In this document: positions 3,218 through 34,866 of the stretch, piece after piece
How positions within the stretch are numbered: position 1 is the first letter of the stretch
Layout of the letters: every line of letters begins with the position of its first letter
DNA from: a virus
Direction: 5' to 3' (one strand)
DNA: 36,517 nucleotides
IMG/VR virus record: IMGVR_UViG_3300044675_002075
Span: 1 to 36,517 of that record
Notes under the pieces: generated by a model
The model's database searches: none
What the model was told of the DNA's origin: nothing
What the model saw: only the letters and a program-made list of their open reading frames with translations
Made by a program: the position numbers and the translations under genes

Positions 3218-3678
3218 TGCCTTACTGGTTACTGAAGTACGCGCCGCATTTAATCTTGACCGCTGGCTTAGGGTTGCTGGCAGTCTACGCGGTACACACA
3301 TTTCGGGAGCAAGGCCGTGAAGAAATACGCCCTCAAGTGGAGCGTCTGGAAGCTGAACTACGGACCGAGCGCGCTACTCGTATACGCGCTGAAATGGCTT
3401 CGACTGCGTACGCATCCGAACTGGCTGCTCTTGCTAGCCGCCCTGTTCGCTCTGCTCCTGTCCGGTTGTGCCGCGACCCCGGTGCAGTGCGTCCCGGCTA
3501 CGCCGCCCCCAGAACTGATGACCCCGCCCCCGCCGCCGGGAGCGGCGCAGGATCGGCTGGAGCAAATCTTGAACAAGGGCCAGACATCGGCCCCGACCTC
3601 CGCGAGCTAGCCGCCCAATGCGATTCGCAAAACGCGAAGCTGCGTGCGCTGCAAAAGTGGGCGCAACCAACGCCATAA
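3217..3678 (+). CDS. i-spanin (Rz-like inner membrane spanin subunit)
   Basis: This 153-residue protein has an N-terminal membrane segment (about residues 9-28, PHLILTAGLGLLAVYAVHTF). A charged heptad-type helix follows (about 30-75, EEIRPQVERLEAELRTERATRIRAE). The C-terminal part is Pro/Ala-rich and ends in another helix. This is the Rz architecture: anchored in the inner membrane, with a periplasmic coiled coil that pairs with the outer-membrane lipoprotein. The match is supported by a second lipoprotein frame (3317-3610) nested wholly inside it, as in lambda Rz/Rz1. The GTG start overlaps the endolysin stop by one base. Confidence 0.85.
   Translation: MPYWLLKYAPHLILTAGLGLLAVYAVHTFREQGREEIRPQVERLEAELRTERATRIRAEMASTAYASELAALASRPVRSAPVRLCRDPGAVRPGYAAPRTDDPAPAAGSGAGSAGANLEQGPDIGPDLRELAAQCDSQNAKLRALQKWAQPTP
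3317..3610 (+). CDS. o-spanin (Rz1-like outer membrane lipoprotein), nested in Rz frame
   Basis: This frame of up to 97 residues lies entirely within the i-spanin gene in the +1 frame. It has a hydrophobic stretch WLLLLAALFALLLSGC ending in a clear lipobox (LSGC, Cys51). The mature part is proline-rich (ATPPPELMTPPPPPG), the hallmark of Rz1 proteins. The only good start in frame is the GTG at 3317, which leaves an unusual extension of about 35 residues before the signal peptide core. A non-standard start nearer the hydrophobic stretch is possible. The lipoprotein would join the periplasmic part of the i-spanin and fuse the inner and outer membranes at the end of lysis. Confidence 0.82.
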   Translation: MKKYALKWSVWKLNYGPSALLVYALKWLRLRTHPNWLLLLAALFALLLSGCAATPVQCVPATPPPELMTPPPPPGAAQDRLEQILNKGQTSAPTSAS

Positions 3679-3974
3679 CACGTGGCGACGGTATTCCCCG
3701 GCAATTCCAACTTGCCGGTCACACAATCAAAGTAAAAGTTATTCCGCCTTCAAAGTGGCGGCACGGCAAAAATTGTGTTGGAATGTGGCTTCCTGACAAG
3801 TATGAGATTCATATTCTAAGCTCTTGTAAAGGCACGAATCGTCAGCAGGTTTGGGCGCACGAAGCCGTCCATGCGTTGCTTGATGTCGCCGGGCACGATG
3901 ACTTGTCGCGCCAAGAGCAACTGGTGGATCGCCTCGGGCATCTACTGCAACAAATGCTTACTACGATGGAATAA
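3618..3974 (+). CDS. HExxH putative zinc metallopeptidase-like protein
   Basis: This protein of up to 118 residues contains HEAVHALLD (His81, Glu82, His85), a zincin motif. A glutamate at about residue 100 (DLSRQEQLVDRLGHLL) is a possible third ligand. The region before the motif (IKVKVIPPSKWRHG...CVGMWLPDKYEIHIL) looks like the beta-sheet that precedes the active helix in IrrE/ImmA- or SprT-like small metallopeptidases. The ATG at 3618 overlaps the end of the i-spanin gene by 61 bases. A GTG at 3657 would shorten it by 13 residues, and neither start has a strong ribosome site. The target is unknown; host regulator cleavage is possible but unsupported. Confidence 0.65.
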   Translation: MRFAKREAACAAKVGATNAITRGDGIPRQFQLAGHTIKVKVIPPSKWRHGKNCVGMWLPDKYEIHILSSCKGTNRQQVWAHEAVHALLDVAGHDDLSRQEQLVDRLGHLLQQMLTTME

Positions 3975-3977
3975 ACG

Positions 3978-5036
3978 ATGGCTCGTAAAGTATCCGACGA
4001 TCAGCTAATGAAAGCACTGCGCGAAGCTAACGGAGTTAGAGCCGAAGCGGCGCGATTGTTGAATCTTAACACTCGGTCCATCATGGCCCGAATCGACGGG
4101 CTTAAAGCCAAGGGGTTTGAGGTTCCCGACTCAACGTACAACAAGGCTACGCTGCCTGAGAAAGACTTTGAGTTTACCCCGCTGCCGATGGACGACGTGC
4201 CGATTGAGCAGCTTATTGAACACCGCAAGCGCCAGTTTGCGCATAAGCGTGACCACGAAGAAGCCAGTAAGCTCATCCCCGTACGAATCAAGATACCTGG
4301 CGCCATAGGCATCCTGTTCTTTGGCGACCCGCACGTTGATGACGACGGCACCGACATCGACGCGCTAGAGCGGCACACGCAACTTGTTTCCGATACCGAC
4401 GGGCTGTTCGCCGTCAACGTAGGCGACACCACGAACAACTGGGTAGGCCGCTTGGCCAAGCTTTACGGCGAGCAGGGTACGTCAGCGGCGCAGGCTTGGC
4501 GTCTTGCCGAGTGGTTTGTAGGCCGATGCAACTGGCTCTGGATACTTGGCGGCAACCACGACTTGTGGTCAGGCGCGGGCGATCCGATGCGTTGGATTGC
4601 TAAACAGCAGGATGCGCTTTACAAGTCAAGCGAGGCGCGCATCGCGCTACGCTTCCCGAACGGGGCCGAGGTACGCGTCAACAGCCGGCATGACCACACC
4701 GGCTCGTCAATCTGGAACCCAGCGCACGGGCCGATGAAGGCTGCAATTCTAGGCACCCGCGACCACATCTACGTCGCCGGGCACAAGCACGAATCGGCTT
4801 ATTCGGTGCTTAAAGACCCGATTACGGGCATCGCCATGCACACGATGAAGGTCGCCAGCTACAAGGTTTACGATCGCTACGCCAAGGAACGGGGCTTCCG
4901 CGATAACGCCTTCAGCCCCTGCGCGCTCGTAACGATTAACCCAAGCCTGTCGCCAGACCATCCCGACATGGTAAAGGTCTGGTGGGCGCCCGAGGAGGGC
5001 GCGGAATATTTACGCTACCTGCGCGGGCGGGGCTAG
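3978..5036 (+). CDS. Calcineurin-like metallophosphoesterase with N-terminal helix-turn-helix
   Basis: This 352-residue protein carries the dimetal phosphoesterase motifs in order: GDPHVD (about 116-121), GDTTNN (149-154), GGNHDLW (191-197) and GHKH (about 268-271). An HDH at roughly 238-240 supplies a further His ligand. Residues 1-45 form a Fis-type helix-turn-helix (AARLLNLNTRSIMARIDGLK), which suggests DNA contact. Related phage proteins are annotated as DNA or nucleic-acid phosphoesterases, but the substrate cannot be read from sequence. The gene ends the rightward block that begins with the virion genes and lysis cassette, and its last 27 bases overlap the tail of the leftward gene at 5010. 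Confidence 0.85.
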   Translation: MARKVSDDQLMKALREANGVRAEAARLLNLNTRSIMARIDGLKAKGFEVPDSTYNKATLPEKDFEFTPLPMDDVPIEQLIEHRKRQFAHKRDHEEASKLIPVRIKIPGAIGILFFGDPHVDDDGTDIDALERHTQLVSDTDGLFAVNVGDTTNNWVGRLAKLYGEQGTSAAQAWRLAEWFVGRCNWLWILGGNHDLWSGAGDPMRWIAKQQDALYKSSEARIALRFPNGAEVRVNSRHDHTGSSIWNPAHGPMKAAILGTRDHIYVAGHKHESAYSVLKDPITGIAMHTMKVASYKVYDRYAKERGFRDNAFSPCALVTINPSLSPDHPDMVKVWWAPEEGAEYLRYLRGRG

Positions 5037-8013: not shown

Positions 8014-8661
8014 ATGTCTAATATCACAGCGTTTGCAAAAGCAGGATTGCCTGCGGTTTCTTCCCTGTCCACCGCCCTTCGCAGCATCGAAGTGGATGTC
8101 GGCCCTGCGGGTACGGCCATCCTCAAGATGGACAAGACCGGCCACTGGGTTTTCGGCGCGGACCAAACCGAGGCCGAGGGCGATAGCAAGTGGGCAATCA
8201 ATCCTTTCTCGTTCGTCCACGGCTTCATTGCCTGGGGCGACGGCGAGGTCTTGGGCGAGAAGATGGTGTCGGTGTCACAGCCGCTGCCTGAGCTCGACCC
8301 GGCACCGCCGCAGAGCAAGAAGGGCTGGGAGACGCAGGTCGGCATGAGCTTGAAGTGCATCTCGGGTGAGGATGTGGGCCTTGAGGCCCGCTACAGCACC
8401 ACGTCGGTGGGCGGCAAGCGTGCCGTGCAGGCTTTGGCAGCAGCCATTGCCGCGCAGGTCGAGCGTGACCAGAGCAAGCCGGTGCCGGTCGTGCATCTGA
8501 AGAAGGAGCACTACCAGCACAAGAGCTATGGCCGCATCTTCACGCCGGTCTTTGAGATCGTCGAGTGGGTGTCCATGGAAGGCGAAGTTGCTAACGAGCC
8601 GGAGGGTGGTGATGACACACCGCCGCCAGCCGCTGCGGCCCGCCGGCGTCGCGCTGCGTGA
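8014..8661 (+). CDS. Probable single-stranded DNA-binding protein
   Basis: This 215-residue protein has a central beta-rich core (about 20-190: SIEVDVGPAGTAILKMDK, ARYSTTSVGGKRAVQ, KKEHYQHKSYGRIFTPVFEIVEW). The C-terminal tail is short and has an acidic and proline part (EGGDDTPPP) but ends in basic AARRRRAA. Proteins of this type sit between DUF2800 nucleases and family A polymerases in many phages and are thought to bind ssDNA. I recognise that pattern but cannot show an OB fold here. The basic rather than acidic terminus is unlike bacterial SSB. It has an AAGGAG ribosome site 6-11 bases before ATG and its stop touches the polymerase region. Confidence 0.6.
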   Translation: MSNITAFAKAGLPAVSSLSTALRSIEVDVGPAGTAILKMDKTGHWVFGADQTEAEGDSKWAINPFSFVHGFIAWGDGEVLGEKMVSVSQPLPELDPAPPQSKKGWETQVGMSLKCISGEDVGLEARYSTTSVGGKRAVQALAAAIAAQVERDQSKPVPVVHLKKEHYQHKSYGRIFTPVFEIVEWVSMEGEVANEPEGGDDTPPPAAAARRRRAA

Positions 8662-8667
8662 CGGAGA

Positions 8668-8694
8668 CGGGGGCGCCCTCGGCCCCCGACTTTT
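8668..8694 (+). terminator. Terminator-like hairpin between ssDNA-binding gene and DNA polymerase
   Basis: CGGGGGC (8668-8674) and GCCCCCG (8682-8688) form a perfect 7-base stem with a 7-base loop, followed by ACTTTT. It has intrinsic-terminator form with a short T tract, lying three bases before the preferred polymerase ATG at 8697. It may act as a partial terminator that lowers polymerase expression, or it may hide the start region. Confidence 0.5.
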
Positions 8695-8696
8695 CT

Positions 8697-10652
8697 ATGG
8701 CAATACTCTGGCTTGACTTTGAAACCCGTAGCCGGTGCGACCTACCGGCGGCGGGTGCGTACAACTACGCCTTAGACGCGAGCACTGAGGTGCTGTGCAT
8801 GTCCTACGCCTTCGACGATGGCGAGGTCGAGACGTGGTTGCCGAAGCACCCGTTCCCCGAGCGCGTGGCTAACTTCAAGGGCCAGATACGCGCGCACAAC
8901 GCCGCCTTTGAGCGGCTTATCTTCTGGTATGTCCTTGACATGCCGTTTGCCTTGTCACAGTTCTACTGCACGGCCGCTCAGGCGCGGGCCAACTGCCTGC
9001 CTGGTAGCCTTGAGGACATCGGCCGCGCCCTGTCGTCCAAGATGAAGAAGGACTACCGTGGCTCGCAGCTCATCCGGCAGCTCTCCATCCCCCGCGCTGA
9101 CGGGACGTTCAACAACGACCCTGAGCTGATGGCCGAGATGGTCGCCTACTGCGAGCAGGACGTGCGCGCCATGCGCGAAATCAGCAAGGCCATGCGCGAC
9201 CTGTCGGACACCGAGCTAGCCGATTACCACGTCAACGAGCGCATCAACGACCGTGGCGTCGGCGTCGATATACCGCTCTGCGAGGCGGCGATCCGTCACG
9301 CGGAATCTGAATTGCAGGACATTGAACGGCTGGTCGCCGAGGTGACGCAGGGCGAGATTACGACCGTTCGCAGTCCCAAGATGCGCGAGTGGGTGCTGGA
9401 GCGCGTCGGGCCCGAGGCCAAGAAGTTGATGACCGTCTATAAAGACGGCGAGAAGAAGTTTAGTATTGACAAAACCGTGCGGGCGAACCTGCTCGCTATG
9501 GACAACCCCGATGAGTTGCCGCCAGACGTGGCTGACGTAGTGCAGTGCGCGGATGACTTGTGGGCATCGTCGGTGGCTAAGTTCAACCGCTTGAAGCAGC
9601 TAGCAGGAGGGGACGCCCGTGTCCGAGGAGCCTTTATTTTTGCTGGTGGAAGTGCCACCGGGCGTGCTTCAAGCTACGGAGCACAAGTCCATAACTTTAC
9701 GCGTAAGTGCAGCACCGAACCTGACGCAACCCGTCAAGCCTTGGTGCGAGGTCATAGTATCGTGCCCCGATACGGCAAGCGCGTTACGGACGTTCTTAAA
9801 TCAATGCTTCGCCCAGCTCTCGTCCCCGCCCGAGGTAACGTTTTCGTCGTGGCCGACTGGGCAGCTATAGAAGCGCGCGCGACACCCTGGCTCTCCGCCG
9901 ACCCGCTTGCAGAGTCGGTGCTGGATGTGTTCCGCGCTGGCGGCGACATCTACAAGCGTGAAGCGGCGGGTATCTACAACACCACATCGGACGCCGTGAC
10001 GGACGACCAGCGCCAGATTGGCAAGGTCGCCATCCTCTCCCTTGGTTTTGCGGGCGGCGTCGGCGCGTTCAGTGCTATGGGCCGGGCGTATGGCGTACAC
10101 ATGAGCGAGCCCGAGGCGCAGCGCATCGTGGATCGTTGGCGGCGGGCTAACCCGTGGGCCGTGCGCTATTGGCAAAAGCTTGAAGACACCTACACCCGCG
10201 CCATGCGAAATGTCAACCATGAATTCGCAATTGGCCGCGTGGTGTACATGTTTGACGGTCAACATCTTTGGTACGCGCTGCCATCAGGGCGCGTGTTATG
10301 TTACCCGTTCGCCCGTCTGGAGTCGGACGGTGTGAGTTATCTCAAGGCAGCATGGAAGCCTGCGCAGGACGCTAAAGAGTGGCCCCGCGCGCGGCTTTGG
10401 AAAGGGCTTGCCTGCGAGAACATCACACAGGCCACGGCTAACGATCTGCTAAGGCATAGCCTGCGCGAGTTAGATAACCAAGGCTTACAAACGGTGCTGC
10501 ACGTGCATGATGAAATCGTTATCGAATGTGCGAACGAGGCCGGCGAGGCTGTCGCCGAGGTGCTGAATACAGTGATGTGTACCGCGCCCGAGTGGGCTAA
10601 AGGGTTCCCGCTCAAGACCGGCGTCAAGATCATGAGCCGATACGGTAAATAA
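8697..10652 (+). CDS. DNA polymerase I-like (family A) with 3'-5' exonuclease domain
   Basis: This replicative polymerase has 651 residues from the ATG at 8697. The exonuclease motifs are WLDFETRS (Asp7, Glu9), HNAAFE (about 67-72) and YCEQDV (about 151-156). Polymerase motif A is VVADWAAIEAR (about 382-392), motif B is RQIGKVAILSLGFAGG (about 438-453), and motif C is HVHDEIVIE (about 600-608). All catalytic acids are present. An alternative GTG start at 8658 overlaps the previous stop as GTGA and would add 13 residues. I prefer 8697 because the exonuclease core begins right there, but neither start has a clear ribosome site. It belongs to the same operon as the nuclease upstream and the primase downstream. 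Confidence 0.93.
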   Translation: MAILWLDFETRSRCDLPAAGAYNYALDASTEVLCMSYAFDDGEVETWLPKHPFPERVANFKGQIRAHNAAFERLIFWYVLDMPFALSQFYCTAAQARANCLPGSLEDIGRALSSKMKKDYRGSQLIRQLSIPRADGTFNNDPELMAEMVAYCEQDVRAMREISKAMRDLSDTELADYHVNERINDRGVGVDIPLCEAAIRHAESELQDIERLVAEVTQGEITTVRSPKMREWVLERVGPEAKKLMTVYKDGEKKFSIDKTVRANLLAMDNPDELPPDVADVVQCADDLWASSVAKFNRLKQLAGGDARVRGAFIFAGGSATGRASSYGAQVHNFTRKCSTEPDATRQALVRGHSIVPRYGKRVTDVLKSMLRPALVPARGNVFVVADWAAIEARATPWLSADPLAESVLDVFRAGGDIYKREAAGIYNTTSDAVTDDQRQIGKVAILSLGFAGGVGAFSAMGRAYGVHMSEPEAQRIVDRWRRANPWAVRYWQKLEDTYTRAMRNVNHEFAIGRVVYMFDGQHLWYALPSGRVLCYPFARLESDGVSYLKAAWKPAQDAKEWPRARLWKGLACENITQATANDLLRHSLRELDNQGLQTVLHVHDEIVIECANEAGEAVAEVLNTVMCTAPEWAKGFPLKTGVKIMSRYGK

Positions 10653-10703: not shown

Positions 10704-12998
10704 ATGAAGTTCGCTGAATATATTAACAGTATCGCTCCAGAAGGGGAAACAATTTTATTCGTGCGCCAGGTGCCGATTGTCCGCAAGGGCGAGCATCTGA
10801 AGCACAAGGACGGCACACCGCGCTACACATGGCCGCCGGGGCTCTATGGCAAGTACATGCGCAACCCCGAGGGGGCGTGGTACGCCAACACGGGTTCATT
10901 CATCGTTGACCGCATGACGGACAAGCTGTCCGCGTCGGCGCCTAACGTCGAGCGCGTGGCGTTTATGGTGCTGGATGACATCGGCACCAAGTCCAAGGTA
11001 CCGCCGATTGAGCCCACGTGGAAGCTCGAAACCAGCCCCGGCAACTTCCAATGGGGCTACACCTTCGCGCTTGACGATCAGCCGACCAAGGGCGAGTTTA
11101 GCGCAGCGATTAAGGCTATGGCCGAGGCGGGGTTTACCGACCCCGGCGCGGTGAATCCGGTGCGTAATTTCCGCATCGAAGGCAGCGTAAACCTGAAGGA
11201 AGGCCGCGACAACTTCGCCGCCGTGCTCACCGAGTTCCACCCCGACCGCGAGTTTACCGTAACGCAGATTGTTACAGCCTGCGGCGTCACGCCAGGCGAG
11301 GTTGACACGGCGTATATACAGGGCATCGCCATCGAAGACGACGGCCTTGACAGCGTGTTGGAGTGGATACAGGAGCGCGGGCTGCTGCTCGCCAAGGCCA
11401 ACCCTGAAGGCTGGTACGGCGTCGTGTGCCCGAACCACGCCGAGCACACCACTGCCGACACGCAAGGGCGGTATCACCCCGTCACGCGCAGCTATACTTG
11501 CTTCCACGGCCATTGCAGCGACTGGAACAGCGAGAAGTTCTTGCGCTGGGTCGAGGCCGAGGGCGGCCCCAAGACGGGCTACGGCCTGCGTGATGACCTG
11601 CTTGCGAAGAAGATGGAGGCCGCTTTGTCGAAGATCACCCCAACCGAGGAGTTCCCCGACGCTGCCGCCGAGGTCATCGCCCAAGTCGAGCGCCGCGAGT
11701 TAGGCCGCGTCGAGAAGTCTAAATGGTACGAGCGTTTCGCGTATGTTCTCAGCGATGACGCGTATTTTGACTTAGGCGAGCGTCACGAAATCGCGCGCGG
11801 GGTGTTCAACGCGCTGTACCGGCATGTGACCTGCCATTCTATCCACAACAACCGACGCATCGAAGCGTCCGTCTGCTTTGACGAGAACCGTCAGGCGATG
11901 GGCGCGCGTGTGCTCGCGGGCGTCACATTCGCCGCTGGCGAGTCCATCCTTGTCAGCCGTAACGGCGTCGTCTACGGCAACCGCTGGCGCGACGCGCGGC
12001 CTGCGGTGAGCGCGGGCGATGTCAGTCCGTGGCTCGCTCACGCCGAGCGCATGATTCCCGACCCCGCCGAACGCGAGCATGTGCTTGATGTGATGGCCTA
12101 CAAGCGCCAGCACGCCAACCAGAAAATCAACCATGCCGTGCTGCACGCGGGCAAGCCAGGCTCCGGTAAGGACACGCTTTGGGCACCCTTCTTCTGGGCA
12201 ATCGGCGGCGACCAGCGCGTCAATGTCACGACGGTGCGTAACGAGGAGCTGAATTCTCAGTGGGGCTACGCGCTGGAATCTGAGGTTATCGTTATCAACG
12301 AGCTGCGTCAGGCCGAGGCTAAAGACCGCCGTGCGCTTGAAAACAGCCTCAAGCCCGTAATCGCCGCGCCCCCTGAGCTGCTCACGGTCAACCGCAAGGG
12401 CTTGCACCCTTACGATGCTTTGAACCGCGTACTGGTGGTGTCGTTCAGCAACGAACGCGCGGCTATCAGCCTCCCTTCGGATGACCGCCGCTGGTTCGTC
12501 GTGTGGAGCGAGGCCGACCGTATGCCGCCCGTTGAGGCGCGCGCGCTCTGGAATTGGTACTACGCGGGCGGCTTCCAGGCTGTCACCGCGTGGCTTGACG
12601 CCCGCGATGTGTCGGCCTTTAACCCCGGCGCTGCGCCGCCCATGACCGAGGCTAAAATCATCATGATCGAGTCGGCGATGAGCACCGCCGAGTCGTTCCT
12701 TGTCGAGATGATTCGTCAACGCCAAGGCGACTTTGCCCGTGGCGTCATTGCCTCGCCGTTCTACGCCATCTGCGACCGGCTGCAAGGCGTGGCACCCTCC
12801 GGCGTCAAGGTCGTCTCTGCCGCGCTCATGCACGCGCTACGGGATGCGGGGTGGGTCGATTGTGGTCGGCTGCACTCTCGTGAGTTCCCAACCAAGAAGC
12901 ATGTATACGCCCACCCTCAGTTTGCGACCCTTGCACGCTCAGAGCTGCGGCGGATGGCGGAGGGTGCCGAACCTGCGTTATCTATCGTCGGGAAATAG
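10704..12998 (+). CDS. Primase-helicase (AEP/RepB-like primase with zinc motif and DUF5906/SF3-type helicase)
   Basis: This 764-residue protein combines two functions. The N-terminal part (about 1-200) resembles archaeo-eukaryotic-type phage primases and contains AFMVLDDIGTK, whose paired aspartates are candidate metal ligands. A zinc-binding-like cluster follows (CPNHAEH at about 241-247 and CFHGHC at about 266-271). The C-terminal part has Walker A HAGKPGSGKDT (about 481-491), an acidic strand VIVINELRQAEAKDR (Walker B region), and RVLVVSFSNERAAISLPSDDRRWF with the conserved Asn and arginines of DUF5906-like viral helicases. It should unwind DNA and lay primers for the polymerase encoded just before it. 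It starts at ATG 10704 behind AGAGGGG and ends four bases from the convergent leftward operon. Confidence 0.85.
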   Translation: MKFAEYINSIAPEGETILFVRQVPIVRKGEHLKHKDGTPRYTWPPGLYGKYMRNPEGAWYANTGSFIVDRMTDKLSASAPNVERVAFMVLDDIGTKSKVPPIEPTWKLETSPGNFQWGYTFALDDQPTKGEFSAAIKAMAEAGFTDPGAVNPVRNFRIEGSVNLKEGRDNFAAVLTEFHPDREFTVTQIVTACGVTPGEVDTAYIQGIAIEDDGLDSVLEWIQERGLLLAKANPEGWYGVVCPNHAEHTTADTQGRYHPVTRSYTCFHGHCSDWNSEKFLRWVEAEGGPKTGYGLRDDLLAKKMEAALSKITPTEEFPDAAAEVIAQVERRELGRVEKSKWYERFAYVLSDDAYFDLGERHEIARGVFNALYRHVTCHSIHNNRRIEASVCFDENRQAMGARVLAGVTFAAGESILVSRNGVVYGNRWRDARPAVSAGDVSPWLAHAERMIPDPAEREHVLDVMAYKRQHANQKINHAVLHAGKPGSGKDTLWAPFFWAIGGDQRVNVTTVRNEELNSQWGYALESEVIVINELRQAEAKDRRALENSLKPVIAAPPELLTVNRKGLHPYDALNRVLVVSFSNERAAISLPSDDRRWFVVWSEADRMPPVEARALWNWYYAGGFQAVTAWLDARDVSAFNPGAAPPMTEAKIIMIESAMSTAESFLVEMIRQRQGDFARGVIASPFYAICDRLQGVAPSGVKVVSAALMHALRDAGWVDCGRLHSREFPTKKHVYAHPQFATLARSELRRMAEGAEPALSIVGK

Positions 12999-15195: not shown

Positions 15196-15389
15196 GCGGC
15201 CTCCCGTTTTTCTTCCACATCATTGATGAAGTCTTCGGCGTAGACGCATCCGATATCTTTAAAGGTTTCGTCACCTTCTGCCCATGTATCAACGGCGATA
15301 TCGTGTGCCTTCTCCGGCGTGTCGGCTTCGACTTCAATTTGATATATGCGATGTTCCACACGGCAGACCGAAACTATATAGCGGCTCAT
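15192..15389 (-). CDS. Small DpnD/PcfM-like or similar alpha/beta protein
   Basis: This 65-residue protein runs MSRYIVSVCRVEHRIYQIEV, then EADTPEKAHDIAVDTWAEGD, then a short acidic tail. The strand-strand-'A-x-T-P-E-K-A'-helix order resembles the C-terminal DpnD/PcfM-like domain and many small phage proteins. The comparison is structural only. It overlaps both neighbours by ATGA. Confidence 0.62.
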   Translation of the reverse strand: MSRYIVSVCRVEHRIYQIEVEADTPEKAHDIAVDTWAEGDETFKDIGCVYAEDFINDVEEKREAA

Positions 15390-15682
15390 GCCTTATCCTC
15401 CCCATCGAAACTAGCCATGTCACCGTCAGCGTAGGCCAACGCCTCAGCAATGTAGCCATGCGCCTCGCTGCCTTCTTCGACTAGCTCATACGCTCTACGC
15501 AGCGCGACCGCGATGCGGGTCAGCTTTTCGCTATCGCTTATCTCGTCGTCGTCGCCGTTCTCCCGCGCCGCCAATATTTCATGGATAGTGAGCAGCGACA
15601 GGCCAAGAGATTCTGCAATTTCTTTTTCTTTCATGCCGTCCTCGTAATACATCGCCAAAATCTGCAGGTCTATGTCGTTCAT
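15386..15682 (-). CDS. Helix-turn-helix protein, possible early regulator
   Basis: Residues about 5-40 of this 98-residue protein (LQILAMYYEDGMKEKEIAES then LGLSLLTIHEILAAR) form a clear helix-turn-helix of the sigma-region-4/LuxR shape. The remainder is acidic and ends GDMASFDGEDKA. It is the only obvious DNA-binding regulator in the leftward operon. It is a candidate for the protein that recognises the 9-base repeat array or the palindrome at 6830, though nothing in the sequence proves either. Overlaps with both neighbours are ATGA. Confidence 0.7.
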   Translation of the reverse strand: MNDIDLQILAMYYEDGMKEKEIAESLGLSLLTIHEILAARENGDDDEISDSEKLTRIAVALRRAYELVEEGSEAHGYIAEALAYADGDMASFDGEDKA

Positions 15683-16034: not shown

Positions 16035-16646
16035 TTAGGCGGCTTCGGCAACGGCGGGCGCGGTCGGCGCGACCAGCCATGCAGGGTTATCCAACGGTTG
16101 CGGGTCGCCACGCATGGGCATGAGTACGCCAATGGCGTCGCCCGGCAGGATAACGCGGGCGGCATTGTCACCATTGTGCCGGATGCTGGGGGAATACTTG
16201 CCGCCTAGCAGTTTGTGAACCTTGCCAAAGGCGCCGACATAGTCCGCGTTGAATTGTGCGACCTCGCCCGATACGGTGAGCGGCACCGCGCGCCGCCAGT
16301 CGGGGTATTTGTCGTCCATCAACGGCGTAGTCGTGGCGGCGTTGCCGTTGTCTAGCGTTGCCATGCGTGCCGTTGCGTCAATCGTCACTAGGATAGGACG
16401 CTTCAATACAGCCTTGACTGACTCCAACGCCTCACGCCGGATAATGTACTGGCCGGGTACGAGCGCGGGCGCGTCATCGGTGGCGGTGAATGCCACGGCT
16501 AACAACTTATGACCGTCGCAACCGACGGCTACAGCATCTGATGCGCGAACATCAATGCATACAGAATTAATGTTATGGCGGATGTCGTTTTTGCCCGCGA
16601 TAACGAGCAACGCTTTAATGGTGTCGGCGGAAATTGAGAATTGCAT
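16035..16646 (-). CDS. Putative sliding clamp (DnaN-like) protein
   Basis: This 203-residue protein is counted from the ATG at 16646, which has AAAGGACACTACC directly before it. A longer frame to 16721 has no ribosome site and crosses the leader. The sequence alternates strands and short helices in clamp fashion: FSISADTIKALLVIAGKND, INSVCIDVRASDAVAVGCDGHKLLAVAF, then PGQYIIRREALESVKAVL. These match the repeated 'helix-strand-D-G-H-x-L-A' unit of the beta clamp. It is shorter than bacterial DnaN (about 366) and near the length of two-domain phage clamps. I infer a processivity factor for the phage polymerase. Confidence 0.65.
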   Translation of the reverse strand: MQFSISADTIKALLVIAGKNDIRHNINSVCIDVRASDAVAVGCDGHKLLAVAFTATDDAPALVPGQYIIRREALESVKAVLKRPILVTIDATARMATLDNGNAATTTPLMDDKYPDWRRAVPLTVSGEVAQFNADYVGAFGKVHKLLGGKYSPSIRHNGDNAARVILPGDAIGVLMPMRGDPQPLDNPAWLVAPTAPAVAEAA

Positions 16647-16883: not shown

Positions 16884-17075
16884 GGATTCTTTTACATAGA
16901 CGCCTTTCAAAGTGCAAGGCATTTTCGGGCAAGGTTGTGGGCATTGTGGGCAGTCTTGTGGGCAATCTTTTCCGGGCAAATTGCCCACGCTTAAACGCCT
17001 TAAAACATAGGTCGGGATATGACTTGTGGGCAATGTGGGTCATCTCTTTATCTTTAAGTTAGGAAAGAAATACTA

Positions 17076-17091
17076 CTGTATAAACATACAG
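17076..17091. promoter_or_regulatory. LexA (SOS) box-like dyad
   Basis: CTGTATAAACATACAG is a perfect 6-base dyad with the CTG-N10-CAG form of gamma/betaproteobacterial LexA sites, and the flanking TA on the left also fits. Overlapping sequence TATAAA (17079-17084) could be a rightward -10 box, but no good -35 is seen. It lies inside the repeat array in a 111-base gap between element clusters. Confidence 0.55.
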
Positions 17092-17094
17092 CCT

Positions 17095-17139
17095 GGAGCG
17101 TGTGGCGCGCATTTCGTTGGGCGCGCTCCGATTTTTTTT
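17095..17139 (+). terminator. Rightward intrinsic terminator without an upstream gene
   Basis: GGAGCG (17095-17100) pairs with CGCTCC (17124-17129), with further GC pairing possible inside (GCGCGC at 17105-17110 and 17121-17126). It is followed by GA and a run of eight T (17132-17139). It would stop a rightward transcript begun near the LexA-like box, giving an RNA of only about 50 bases, or it would block read-through from antisense transcription of the early operon. Confidence 0.6.
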
Positions 17140-17340
17140 CCGTGACCATTTGACCCACATGACCCACAAATTGCCCACGCCCTCCGATTTGTGGGCAATG
17201 TGGGCAACCGAAAACAAATTGCCCACATTGCCCACAAATGCTCCGACCAAAGAATTGCCCACATGACCCACAACGCTTGACGGCTAGCAGTCGGGGGCGC
17301 GTAGCCGTTGCCCACATTGCCCACGCTGCCCACCGCAATC

Positions 17341-17665
17341 AGGCTAAATGCGAACGAGAATCATTTGCAACTAGGGGGGTGGGCCGGCCCGCGCGGTGGT
17401 TGTACCTGGTGCTATGGGGTCGTAAAAATTTTTTATTTTTTTACCCGCTAGCCCGTAAATTAAAGTCTTGTGCTATTCTTGCGTGGCGATGTCTGACGTG
17501 ATGCGCACGTAGCGACCGGGAGGTAGCTGAAGGGCTATAGCCCACCATCTAAGGCAATCTCCGCCCCGGCACACAGGCCACACGGTTGTTGTGGATCGCG
17601 GCCTCCCGGCAGGACAATCCTGCACATCGCTTGCTATTGCCTTACACGAAAGGTAGTGTTGCGAC
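17341..17665. other. Non-coding leader: GC palindrome, A/T tract, weak promoter and foldable segment
   Basis: No gene is supported here. Seen in order: GGGCCGGCCC palindrome at 17381-17390; an A/T tract at 17423-17442 (A5, T6, A, T7) that could melt easily; and a possible extended -10 promoter TGCTATTCT (17471-17479) without a good -35. A foldable stretch follows, with outer arms CCGGGAGG (17517-17524) and CCTCCCGG (17602-17609). Inside are palindrome GGGCTATAGCCC (17532-17543) and stem CCACA/TGTGG (17578-17582, 17590-17594). Downstream is hairpin GCAGGA-CAA-TCCTGC (17609-17623). The last part is a candidate RNA leader or a cos/pac site beside terminase. Confidence 0.5.
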
Positions 17666-18145
17666 ATGTTCAAATCGCTCCCGTTTGAGCCACGCGAGAT
17701 TAAGGCGACCGAGACACGGCTTCAGGCCATCTATGACGCGGCGGCGCTTGGGCTGAAAGGTGATAGGCTCGCCTTGGCGGCGGGGATGCTGCCTACGGAA
17801 TACCGTCGTTTATGCCAAATGGACCCCATGGCCGAGATGGCCGAAGCCAAAGGCCGCGCCGATGGGGAGGTTGAAGCCGCCGTTCAGCTGCGCGAGGCGG
17901 CTAGAAATGGCGATAGCAAGGCGGCTCTCGCTATCCTTCAGCACGTGCATGGCTGGGTGGCGAAGCAGCAGGTCCAAGTGGATGTCACGCAGCAGATCAG
18001 CGTCATCGCGGCGCTGCAAGAGGCGGAGTCTCGCGTCATTAATGGCCGAATATTGTCGCCAGCACCGGCTGCACTGATTCAAGACGCATCGCCAAGGCTT
18101 GTAAACCTGGAGCAGCACTCCGAATATGCAAACGCCGATATATAG
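17666..18145 (+). CDS. Terminase small subunit
   Basis: This 159-residue protein lies directly before the large terminase. The N-terminal half holds helices like a DNA-binding domain (ATETRLQAIYDAAALGLKGD, RLALAAGMLPTEYRRLC). The mid-part (MAEAKGRADGEVEAAVQLRE, AARNGDSKAALAILQHVHG) matches the common phage TerS pattern 'A-x-x-G-D-x-x-A-A-x-x-x-L'. The tail (QVDVTQQISVIAAL) matches as well. It should recognise the packaging site and feed DNA to TerL. A weak AAAGG lies 12 bases before the ATG. The gene overlaps the start of TerL by 20 bases, so their production is linked. Confidence 0.85.
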   Translation: MFKSLPFEPREIKATETRLQAIYDAAALGLKGDRLALAAGMLPTEYRRLCQMDPMAEMAEAKGRADGEVEAAVQLREAARNGDSKAALAILQHVHGWVAKQQVQVDVTQQISVIAALQEAESRVINGRILSPAPAALIQDASPRLVNLEQHSEYANADI

Positions 18146-32654: not shown

Positions 32655-33451
32655 GCGTATTTCTTTCAGCTTTTGCCGGCGCCGGGGCGCAGTTCTTCGA
32701 CAACAACGGCAACATCTTGTCGGGCGGTAAGCTTTGGACTTATACCGCCGGAACCACGACCCCGCAGGCGACCTACACGGACTCGTCGGGCGCAACGCCG
32801 AACACGAACCCGATTGTGCTGAACGCCGCCGGTCGCACGGCGCAGCCCATCTGGCTGACCGAAAGTGTATCGTACAAGTTTGTGCTGATGACCTCGGCAA
32901 ACGTCGTAATCGGCACGTACGACGATATTGCCGGCGTCAATGACTTTAGCATTGAAGGCATCAACTGGTCGGACATCCTCGGCACGCCGACGACCCTTTC
33001 GGGGTACGGCATTACGGACGCGTTGTCTACGGCCTCGGCCGCTGCAACTTACGCCCCGATTGCGAGCCCGACCTTTACCGGCACGCCGCTGATTCCCGAC
33101 AACGCGACGGTCAGCGTTGACCATGCCGTCGGGTACCGCGACGCGCCGACGAACTCCAAGACGGCTAGCTACGAGTTGGTGTTGGCTGATCGCGGCAAAG
33201 CCGTCGTGATGAATGGCTCTAGTTTGACCCTGACTATTCCGGCCAACAGCGCCACGGCGTTCCCATTGGGCACGGTCGTTATCATCGTTAACCTCAACGC
33301 TACGGCGCTGTCTATCGCTATCACGACCGATACGATGACCTTGGCCAACAGCACCACGACCGGCACCCGCACGCTCGCGCGTAATGGTGTCGCTACGCTT
33401 ATCAAGATTTCGGCGGCGTCGTGGCTTATCAGCGGGGCGGGGTTGACCTGA
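32651..33451 (+). CDS. Tail fibre protein
   Basis: This is a 266-residue protein. Residues 1-105 form the conserved unit FAGAGAQFFDNNGNILSGGK, LWTYTAGTTTPQATYTDSSG, NPIVLNAAGRTAQPIWLTES and VSYKFVLMTSANVVIGTYDD, found at the front of many fibre and tailspike proteins as a virion-attachment domain. Residues 110-165 hold repeats typical of fibre shafts (LGTPTTLSGYGITDALS; YAPIASPTFTGTPL). The rest is a beta-rich tip. It starts with ATGA overlap. It is likely an attachment fibre. Confidence 0.8.
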   Translation: MSVFLSAFAGAGAQFFDNNGNILSGGKLWTYTAGTTTPQATYTDSSGATPNTNPIVLNAAGRTAQPIWLTESVSYKFVLMTSANVVIGTYDDIAGVNDFSIEGINWSDILGTPTTLSGYGITDALSTASAAATYAPIASPTFTGTPLIPDNATVSVDHAVGYRDAPTNSKTASYELVLADRGKAVVMNGSSLTLTIPANSATAFPLGTVVIIVNLNATALSIAITTDTMTLANSTTTGTRTLARNGVATLIKISAASWLISGAGLT

Positions 33452-33452
33452 C

Positions 33453-34067
33453 ATGGGCGGCGCTACGCTCGCGTCCTTTTTCAACGGCAGCGCCGGCGGC
33501 GCGGGGGCTGGCGTATACGATTACTCCGAACCCGGTTCTGGATCGGTTGCCATCCCCGTAGGTGCTACCGGCGTCACCATACAAGTGTGGGGCGCTGGCG
33601 GCGGCGGGGCCACGGGCTTTGAGTATTTTATCGCCCCCGGCGAGTTCGATATTATTGACGGCGGTGGTGGCGGTGGTGGCGGTTACTCCAAGACCGTGCT
33701 GACTTTTAGCGGGCAAGACGGCAAGACAATCCTGTACACCGTCGGTGTTGGTGGCGCGGGTGCCGGGGCAGCTACCGCCGGCGGGTTCTCCAATGTCTAC
33801 AGCGGCACCTACACGCTTACAACCATGACCTCTAATGGCGGCCAACCGGGCAACGCCGGACCGCTGCAAACGCAGGGCGCGGGCGGCGCGGCTTCAGGCG
33901 GCAATACGACCAATACGACTGGCAACGGCGGAGCGGCGTATACTTCGGCGGGCGCCCTTCCTCTTGCCGGTGACGGGAGTTTGACGGCGGGTGGCGGTGG
34001 TGATGGCAGTTATCTTGGCGGTGAGCCTGGCCAGAACGGCCGCGTCCGCATGGTCTTTACATTCTAA
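33453..34067 (+). CDS. Glycine-rich fibre-tip adhesin-like protein
   Basis: This 204-residue protein is dominated by Gly runs (GAGGGGATGFEYF; DGGGGGGGGYSKTVL; GGAGAGAATAGGF; GGGGDGSYLGGEPGQNGRVR) and ends in VRMVFTF. This resembles glycine-rich (polyglycine-helix) adhesins at the tips of phage fibres, where loops between Gly runs bind the receptor. The ATG lies two bases after the fibre stop. It may be a separate tip subunit of that fibre. The family call rests on composition. Confidence 0.7.
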   Translation: MGGATLASFFNGSAGGAGAGVYDYSEPGSGSVAIPVGATGVTIQVWGAGGGGATGFEYFIAPGEFDIIDGGGGGGGGYSKTVLTFSGQDGKTILYTVGVGGAGAGAATAGGFSNVYSGTYTLTTMTSNGGQPGNAGPLQTQGAGGAASGGNTTNTTGNGGAAYTSAGALPLAGDGSLTAGGGGDGSYLGGEPGQNGRVRMVFTF

Positions 34068-34411: not shown

Positions 34412-34866
34412 TTGTCCGCGACGCCGTTGCCGAGGACTTGCCGCGCTACCTGCCGCTTGCGCAGGCGTTTTACGCGGCGTCCCCGGTCAACGGCGTCATC
34501 CCCTTTGACGACGAGGGATATGCCAACTTTTTCTTACAGGCTGTGCAAAACCCCAGCATGGGGGTATGGCTGGCTGAAGACGACGGCAAAATCGTTGGAA
34601 TCGCCGGCGCATTGCTTTACCCTATGTACTTCAGCCCTTCCAGTATGGTAGTGCAGGAGTTGTGGTGGTGGCTGACCCCCCAAGTACGGGGTAAGGGCGC
34701 CGGTAAAGCCATGTACGATATGATTGAATCGTGGGCAATCGCAAACAATGCAACAGCACTTTTTATGATTGCCCTTGAAGATGAACGCGCGGATAAGATG
34801 GCTAATCTTTATGCGCGAAAAGGCTTTCGTCCTATGGAACGCACGTATATTAGAGAGGTGGCGTAA
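34408..34866 (+). CDS. GNAT-family N-acetyltransferase
   Basis: This 152-residue protein has the GNAT fold order: strand (IVRDAVAEDLPRYLPLAQAF), central strands (GVWLAEDDGKIVGIAGALLY; VVQELWWWLTPQVRGKGAGK), the acetyl-CoA loop Q-x-R-G-K-G-A-G (92-99), and a C-terminal part (ANLYARKGFRPMERTYIREV). It would transfer an acetyl group from acetyl-CoA to an unknown amine. It lies between virion genes, which suggests a substrate made late or a virion component. The start GTG shares GTGA with the previous stop, and its stop TAA shares a base with the next ATG. Confidence 0.85.
   Translation: MIVRDAVAEDLPRYLPLAQAFYAASPVNGVIPFDDEGYANFFLQAVQNPSMGVWLAEDDGKIVGIAGALLYPMYFSPSSMVVQELWWWLTPQVRGKGAGKAMYDMIESWAIANNATALFMIALEDERADKMANLYARKGFRPMERTYIREVA

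Follow-up and report, generated by a model that had tools for sequence, protein, structure and literature searches.

The 18 short repeats that lie between the leftward and the rightward genes of this virus very likely form a podophage replication origin. From sequence comparison, structural modelling and analogy with known systems, it would be bound by the phage's own primase-helicase through a C-terminal winged-helix domain. The array is best read as an iteron origin like those of P4 and SaPI-PICI, here carried by a complete phage. The window, that is the whole stretch of DNA analysed, comprises 36517 bases and corresponds to one whole IMG/VR virus record. It is the genome of a P22-like podophage that encodes a PolA and a primase-helicase of its own. 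P22-like late genes (portal, scaffold, major head protein, head closure and DNA ejection) are present, and PHROG/Pfam searches assigned an exonuclease, a family A DNA polymerase and a primase-helicase to replication. The same searches, carried out with selected open frames, found neither an integrase nor a phage repressor. The putative terS is the first gene of the rightward packaging operon. The sign of the GC skew flips near 16 kb and, since the gene direction changes at the same place, the skew is uninformative on the origin. The coordinates of all the features are collected in Table 1.

Table 1. Features of the window discussed in the text (strand: + or -; a point where none applies)
Feature	Position	Strand	Basis or remark
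Family A DNA polymerase	8658..10652	+	PHROG/Pfam; same replication module as primase-helicase
Primase-helicase, proposed initiator	10704..12998	+	PHROG 1156 DNA primase; Pfam DUF5906
Predicted C-terminal winged-helix domain, residues 661-752, proposed iteron reader	12684..12959	+	AlphaFold2 model
Small helix-turn-helix protein	15386..15682	-	PHROG/Pfam; unlikely reader of array
Beta-clamp-like processivity factor	16035..16646	-	Weak PHROG/Pfam match; first sizeable leftward gene
Left iteron block, six 9-mers	16936..17042	.	16936-, 16945-, 16957-, 16981+, 17025-, 17034-
Imperfect palindrome CCT-N8-AGG, within left block	16998..17011	.	Conserved, alignment of 18 relatives
Spacer between iteron blocks, 108 bp	17043..17150	.	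Layout of window and relatives
LexA/SOS-box-like palindrome TACTGTATAAACATACAGCC	17074..17093	.	16/20 to E. coli consensus
G+C-rich hairpin, right half of spacer	17095..17129	+	-19.2 kcal/mol, RNA parameters
Right iteron block, twelve 9-mers	17151..17334	.	17151+, 17160+, 17171+, 17190-, 17199-, 17219+, 17228+, 17255+, 17264+, 17308+, 17317+, 17326+
A/T tract TAAAAATTTTTTATTTTTTTA / AAAATTTTTTATTTTTTTA, between array and terS	17423..17443	.	Similar tract in nearly all relatives examined
Extended -10-like TGCTATTCT	17471..17479	+	In some relatives only
Putative terminase small subunit (TerS)	17666..18145	+	Position only, no family match

The array was first described in an earlier note, and its account of the DNA itself was confirmed. 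All 18 nine-mers were present within the 399 bases from 16936 to 17334, seven on the minus and eleven on the plus strand, at the border of the leftward and rightward genes, with one AT-rich stretch inside the locus (50 bp from 17038) and another to its right (~17420). Of the 18, 15 touch a neighbour head to tail without any gap, as pairs or as a triplet; the units at 16957, 16981 and 17171 are unpaired. The calculation that a 9-bp step falls about 50 degrees short of a turn also holds (~309 degrees at 10.5 bp per turn). When up to one mismatch to TTGCCCACA was allowed, 26 matches were counted in the window, compared with 9.35 expected, and none of 100 shuffles reached 26. Eleven of these matches fall within the 399 bp, while the remaining 36 kb contain 15 (Poisson p ~6e-17). 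The clustered short repeat of an iteron-type origin is found here as 18 copies in the genome's single cluster.

The nine-mers are distributed over two blocks. With < and > for the two orientations and gaps in brackets, the left block reads <<[3]<[15]>[35]<< and the right block >>[2]>[10]<<[11]>>[18]>>[35]>>>. The left layout is common to most close relatives, and a similar one was observed with another nine-mer in L014/L067. The right block contains a perfect 21-bp inverted repeat (17187-17207/17219-17239), and the inner nine-mer pairs of both blocks face away from the spacer. The six left and twelve right units are suggestive of hexamers; these numbers vary in relatives and were given no weight. 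In many relatives the inner AAACATA of the CCT-N8-AGG palindrome occurs also in the LexA-like box of the spacer.

An adjacent AT-rich region, as it is expected for an iteron origin, was also found. The left half of the spacer (17043-17096) is 69% AT in a genome with 58% GC, and the 50 bp from 17038 (72% AT) belong to the top 0.03% of the genome; together with the stretch at ~17420 they represent two of its only three such AT-rich places. The left half is probably the DNA-unwinding element. The hairpin of the right half is followed by a T run (17132-17139), and both together possibly act as a terminator or structural element; the stem is not clearly conserved in distant relatives. To the right of the array, the A/T tract is probably a promoter upstream element or bent DNA, and the packaging operon has a candidate promoter in TGCTATTCT.

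When viral DNA was scanned for two exact nine-mers in direct contact, 105 stretches matched, and relatives of the primase-helicase were encoded on 246. Where such a relative and an array were both visible, the array was nearly always upstream of terS. It was recovered from dozens of related contigs, at the same place and with the same layout, which in close relatives is maintained almost base for base, 108-bp spacer included. Spacer lengths in relatives ranged from 108 to 124 bp where no extra unit intrudes. The two-block layout <<[108-124 bp]>> persists when the nine-mer switches from TTGCCCACA to TTGC[CT]TACA (L014 and L067, <<[121-122]>>) or to TTG[CT]CCACA (L071/L036, <<[123-124]>>). The nine-mers of further lineages are ATGACCTAT or ATTGTCAT, and in L028 and L065 the nine-mer pairs are repeated at 36-bp steps.

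Other repeats were encountered during this survey. Six relatives (L012, L047, L075, L078, L088 and L109) carry a second repeat, CACTAAC/GTTAGTG, with up to 16 near-copies in alternating orientation ~125-345 bp upstream of terS; it comes after the TTGCCCACA pairs and, in most of the six, one exact TTATCCACA DnaA-type box. Only some relatives, namely L018 (~360-445 bp upstream of terS) and L074, have short tandem arrays (GGCTGACGGCTGACG..., GTCGGCTGTCGGCT...) on the right-hand side of the iterons. Two apparent matches were discarded. The array of phage DSL-LC05 (L008) looked identical by regular expression; its actual repeat, located at the corresponding place (3600-4000), is the palindromic TGACCCACTGGGT, and this phage has an unrelated prim-pol and a family B polymerase. 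Similar TGTGGGCAAT repeats with ~10-bp spacing (L079, 9865-10289) lie on a contig without a DUF5906 helicase and belong to a different system. The cultured Rhodoferax phage P26218 (L220), which has a DnaB-type helicase, shows up to six copies of TGCTACAA at 33000-33800, between terS and the helicase genes, perhaps another iteron origin.

The proposed initiator contains a zinc-ribbon-like Cys/His cluster and the DUF5906 helicase P-loop GKPGSGKDT. Its N-terminal half appears to be of the primase type, as judged by its resemblance to annotated prim-pols. The protein has no Pfam match to the TOPRIM family, and the relatives of its model include ASFV PrimPol and pox E5. For the helicase region, the best model match was the NrS-1 primase-polymerase, followed by pox D5/E5, ASFV PrimPol and SaPI5 Rep; NrS-1 was also the best sequence match (E 1e-10). 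Residues 661-752 were modelled by AlphaFold2 as H-E-H-H-E-E-H with a core pLDDT mostly above 90, and the predicted fold of the C-terminus is a winged helix. A structure search with this domain yielded generic winged helices as best matches and no specific match to P4 alpha.

In order to evaluate which protein tracks the repeat, partial Mantel tests on repeated k-mer similarity were carried out for 26 dereplicated phages with 500 permutations. Repeat similarity correlated with that part of the primase-helicase which comprises helicase and C-terminal domain (partial r 0.49, 0/500 permutations), as read with a crude motif measure and with phylogeny incompletely removed. In the same set no correlation was detected with the N-terminal primase half (partial r -0.02) or with TerS (-0.04), and the one with TerL was marginal (0.11, 31/500 permutations). 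When the protein was analysed by segment, the winged helix did not stand out (partial r 0.185 for the C-terminal domain, 0.195 for residues 321-450 and 0.375 for the helicase), the helicase core correlating with the repeat at least as well. Two comparisons come close to natural domain swaps. The primases of L071/L082 and L014/L009 are mostly at least 90% identical, with 57-83% identity at residues ~330-450 and 660-764, and their repeats differ; residues 330-450 switch along with the C-terminal segment. L012 and L109 are ~94% identical in the C-terminal domain and only ~73% in the helicase, and TTGCCCACA pairs are common to both.

The earlier note had proposed "origin or master operator". The first part is well supported by the conserved position and architecture in related phages and by the repeat tracking the initiator helicase. 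The second, an operator set from which a phage regulator would switch leftward early against rightward late genes, is improbable. The array does sit between divergent operons, with a LexA-like box inside and the extended -10-like element to its right. However, the only helix-turn-helix candidate, the protein that had been suggested as binder, has a detectable relative in just 6 of the 64 loci with primase, TerS and TerL, for which reason it was rejected as the likely reader of the array. Moreover, a consensus scan of the array region revealed no full promoter, 18 sites and a conserved AT-rich spacer exceed what an operator needs, and the repeat sequence tracks the helicase.

Recruitment of the host initiator, with TTGCCCACA as a drifted DnaA box (TTATCCACA, or TTGTCCACA of GC-rich hosts) and host DnaA as reader, is somewhat less probable again. 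TTGCCCACA matches the E. coli box at 7 of 9 bases, and exact copies of TTGTCCACA and TTATCCACA occur within the same arrays of some relatives. Against this, the canonical TTWTNCACA box is absent from the array, the window's one match being at 34542, there are lineages with TTGCTTACA, ATGACCTAT or ATTGTCAT instead, and the repeat covaries with a phage gene. A packaging (pac/cos) site read by the terminase small subunit is the least probable explanation, and was rejected: in almost all relatives terS follows directly after the array, but the repeat does not follow TerS once helicase identity is accounted for, and L031/L015 retain the primase-helicase and the TTGCCCACA array although their terminase and portal have no BLAST relation to those of the window.

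For an origin read by the primase-helicase, the following sequence of events may be envisaged. By analogy with known initiators, the protein would bind the 9-bp iterons via its C-terminal winged-helix domain, and rings of it would assemble on both iteron blocks, one on each side of the spacer. Its AT-rich half would then melt, again by analogy, and helicases would load at the melted DNA and presumably move outward. The primase-helicase would prime synthesis, which the phage PolA would extend.

The statement that no known phage origin has this form proved wrong in kind, as the origins of P4 alpha and of PICI/SaPI are precedents (PMC4234260, PMC6092414). In PICI/SaPI origins two iteron sets flank an AT-rich region (PMC6092414), and the window likewise has two sets of short iterons around such a region. 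In both SaPI Rep and SCCmec Cch2 it is the C-terminal domain that recognises the iterons (PMC7581432); a self-loading helicase that reads through a C-terminal DNA-binding domain would also be present here, given the predicted winged helix and the match of the model to SaPI5 Rep (7ola). In contrast to these islands, the window is a complete podophage and not a satellite, its iterons are 9-bp, abutting and on both strands, and its spacer contains a LexA-like box. Furthermore, the PICI/SaPI origin lies immediately 3' of the initiator gene, whereas here the initiator gene ends at 12998 and the array starts at 16936, ~4 kb away and beside terS.

Other systems share part of this arrangement. P4 alpha combines primase, helicase and a winged helix that binds the origin repeats in one protein (PMC4234260). 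However, the P4 primase is of the TOPRIM type, whereas the structural relatives of the window protein carry archaeo-eukaryotic-type prim-pol domains, and no second iteron site like P4 crr was found in the window. NrS-1, the closest in sequence and fold to the helicase region, differs in that its reported candidate origin consists of two copies of an 8-nt site, one per strand (PMC7102993), not of an iteron array. SCCmec Cch2 is a helicase whose C-terminal domain binds direct-repeat iterons, but these are three of 5 nt, its polymerase is separate and the element is different (PMC7581432). The domains of the pRN1/BIP-1 type replication proteins come in a similar order, an AEP prim-pol being followed by an SF3 helicase and a winged helix. 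Proteins built in this way had been proposed to use stem-loop origins (PMC4234260); the phage family of the window has an iteron array, and argues for iterons, not stem-loops.

The LexA/SOS-like box of the spacer deserves separate consideration. None of 200 shuffled genomes reached its score of 16 of 20 to the E. coli LexA consensus. Close relatives keep the half-sites ACTGTAT and (A/G)TACAG of a CTGT-N8-ACAG operator with different centres (AAAC, GGAT, AGAC, AGGC, ACGC). Constant half-sites around a variable centre are what a real operator would show. Distant lineages lack the box, as do L021 and L148/L013/L032; the spacers of the last three have another palindrome, TTTTATGCGCATAAAA, where the box would be, which suggests an operator swap. 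A second LexA-like site at 10712, at the primase start, was rejected as it is coding sequence and not conserved. From its form, the box presumably indicates a beta- or gammaproteobacterial host. Two relatives are in a contig bin named Rhodoferax, which is weak host evidence as phage contigs are easily misbinned. Control by host LexA is known for phage GIL01, where it acts at a promoter (PMC4551915). It may tentatively be suggested, as a rather doubtful possibility, that host LexA bound in the AT-rich spacer directly hinders melting or helicase loading, or transcription across the origin, such that this phage, which apparently does not integrate, would hold back replication until the SOS response sets in or the phage itself neutralises LexA. 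The box suggests that phage replication is connected with DNA damage in the host.

As nine-mer and initiator domain change together, the origin-recognition specificity of this helicase class becomes directly testable. In the open-access literature that was searched, this layout is described as a feature unique to small islands that parasitise viruses, and here it is found in a complete phage. It appears to be present also in a widespread group of environmental podophages, which bears on the origin of satellite replicons.
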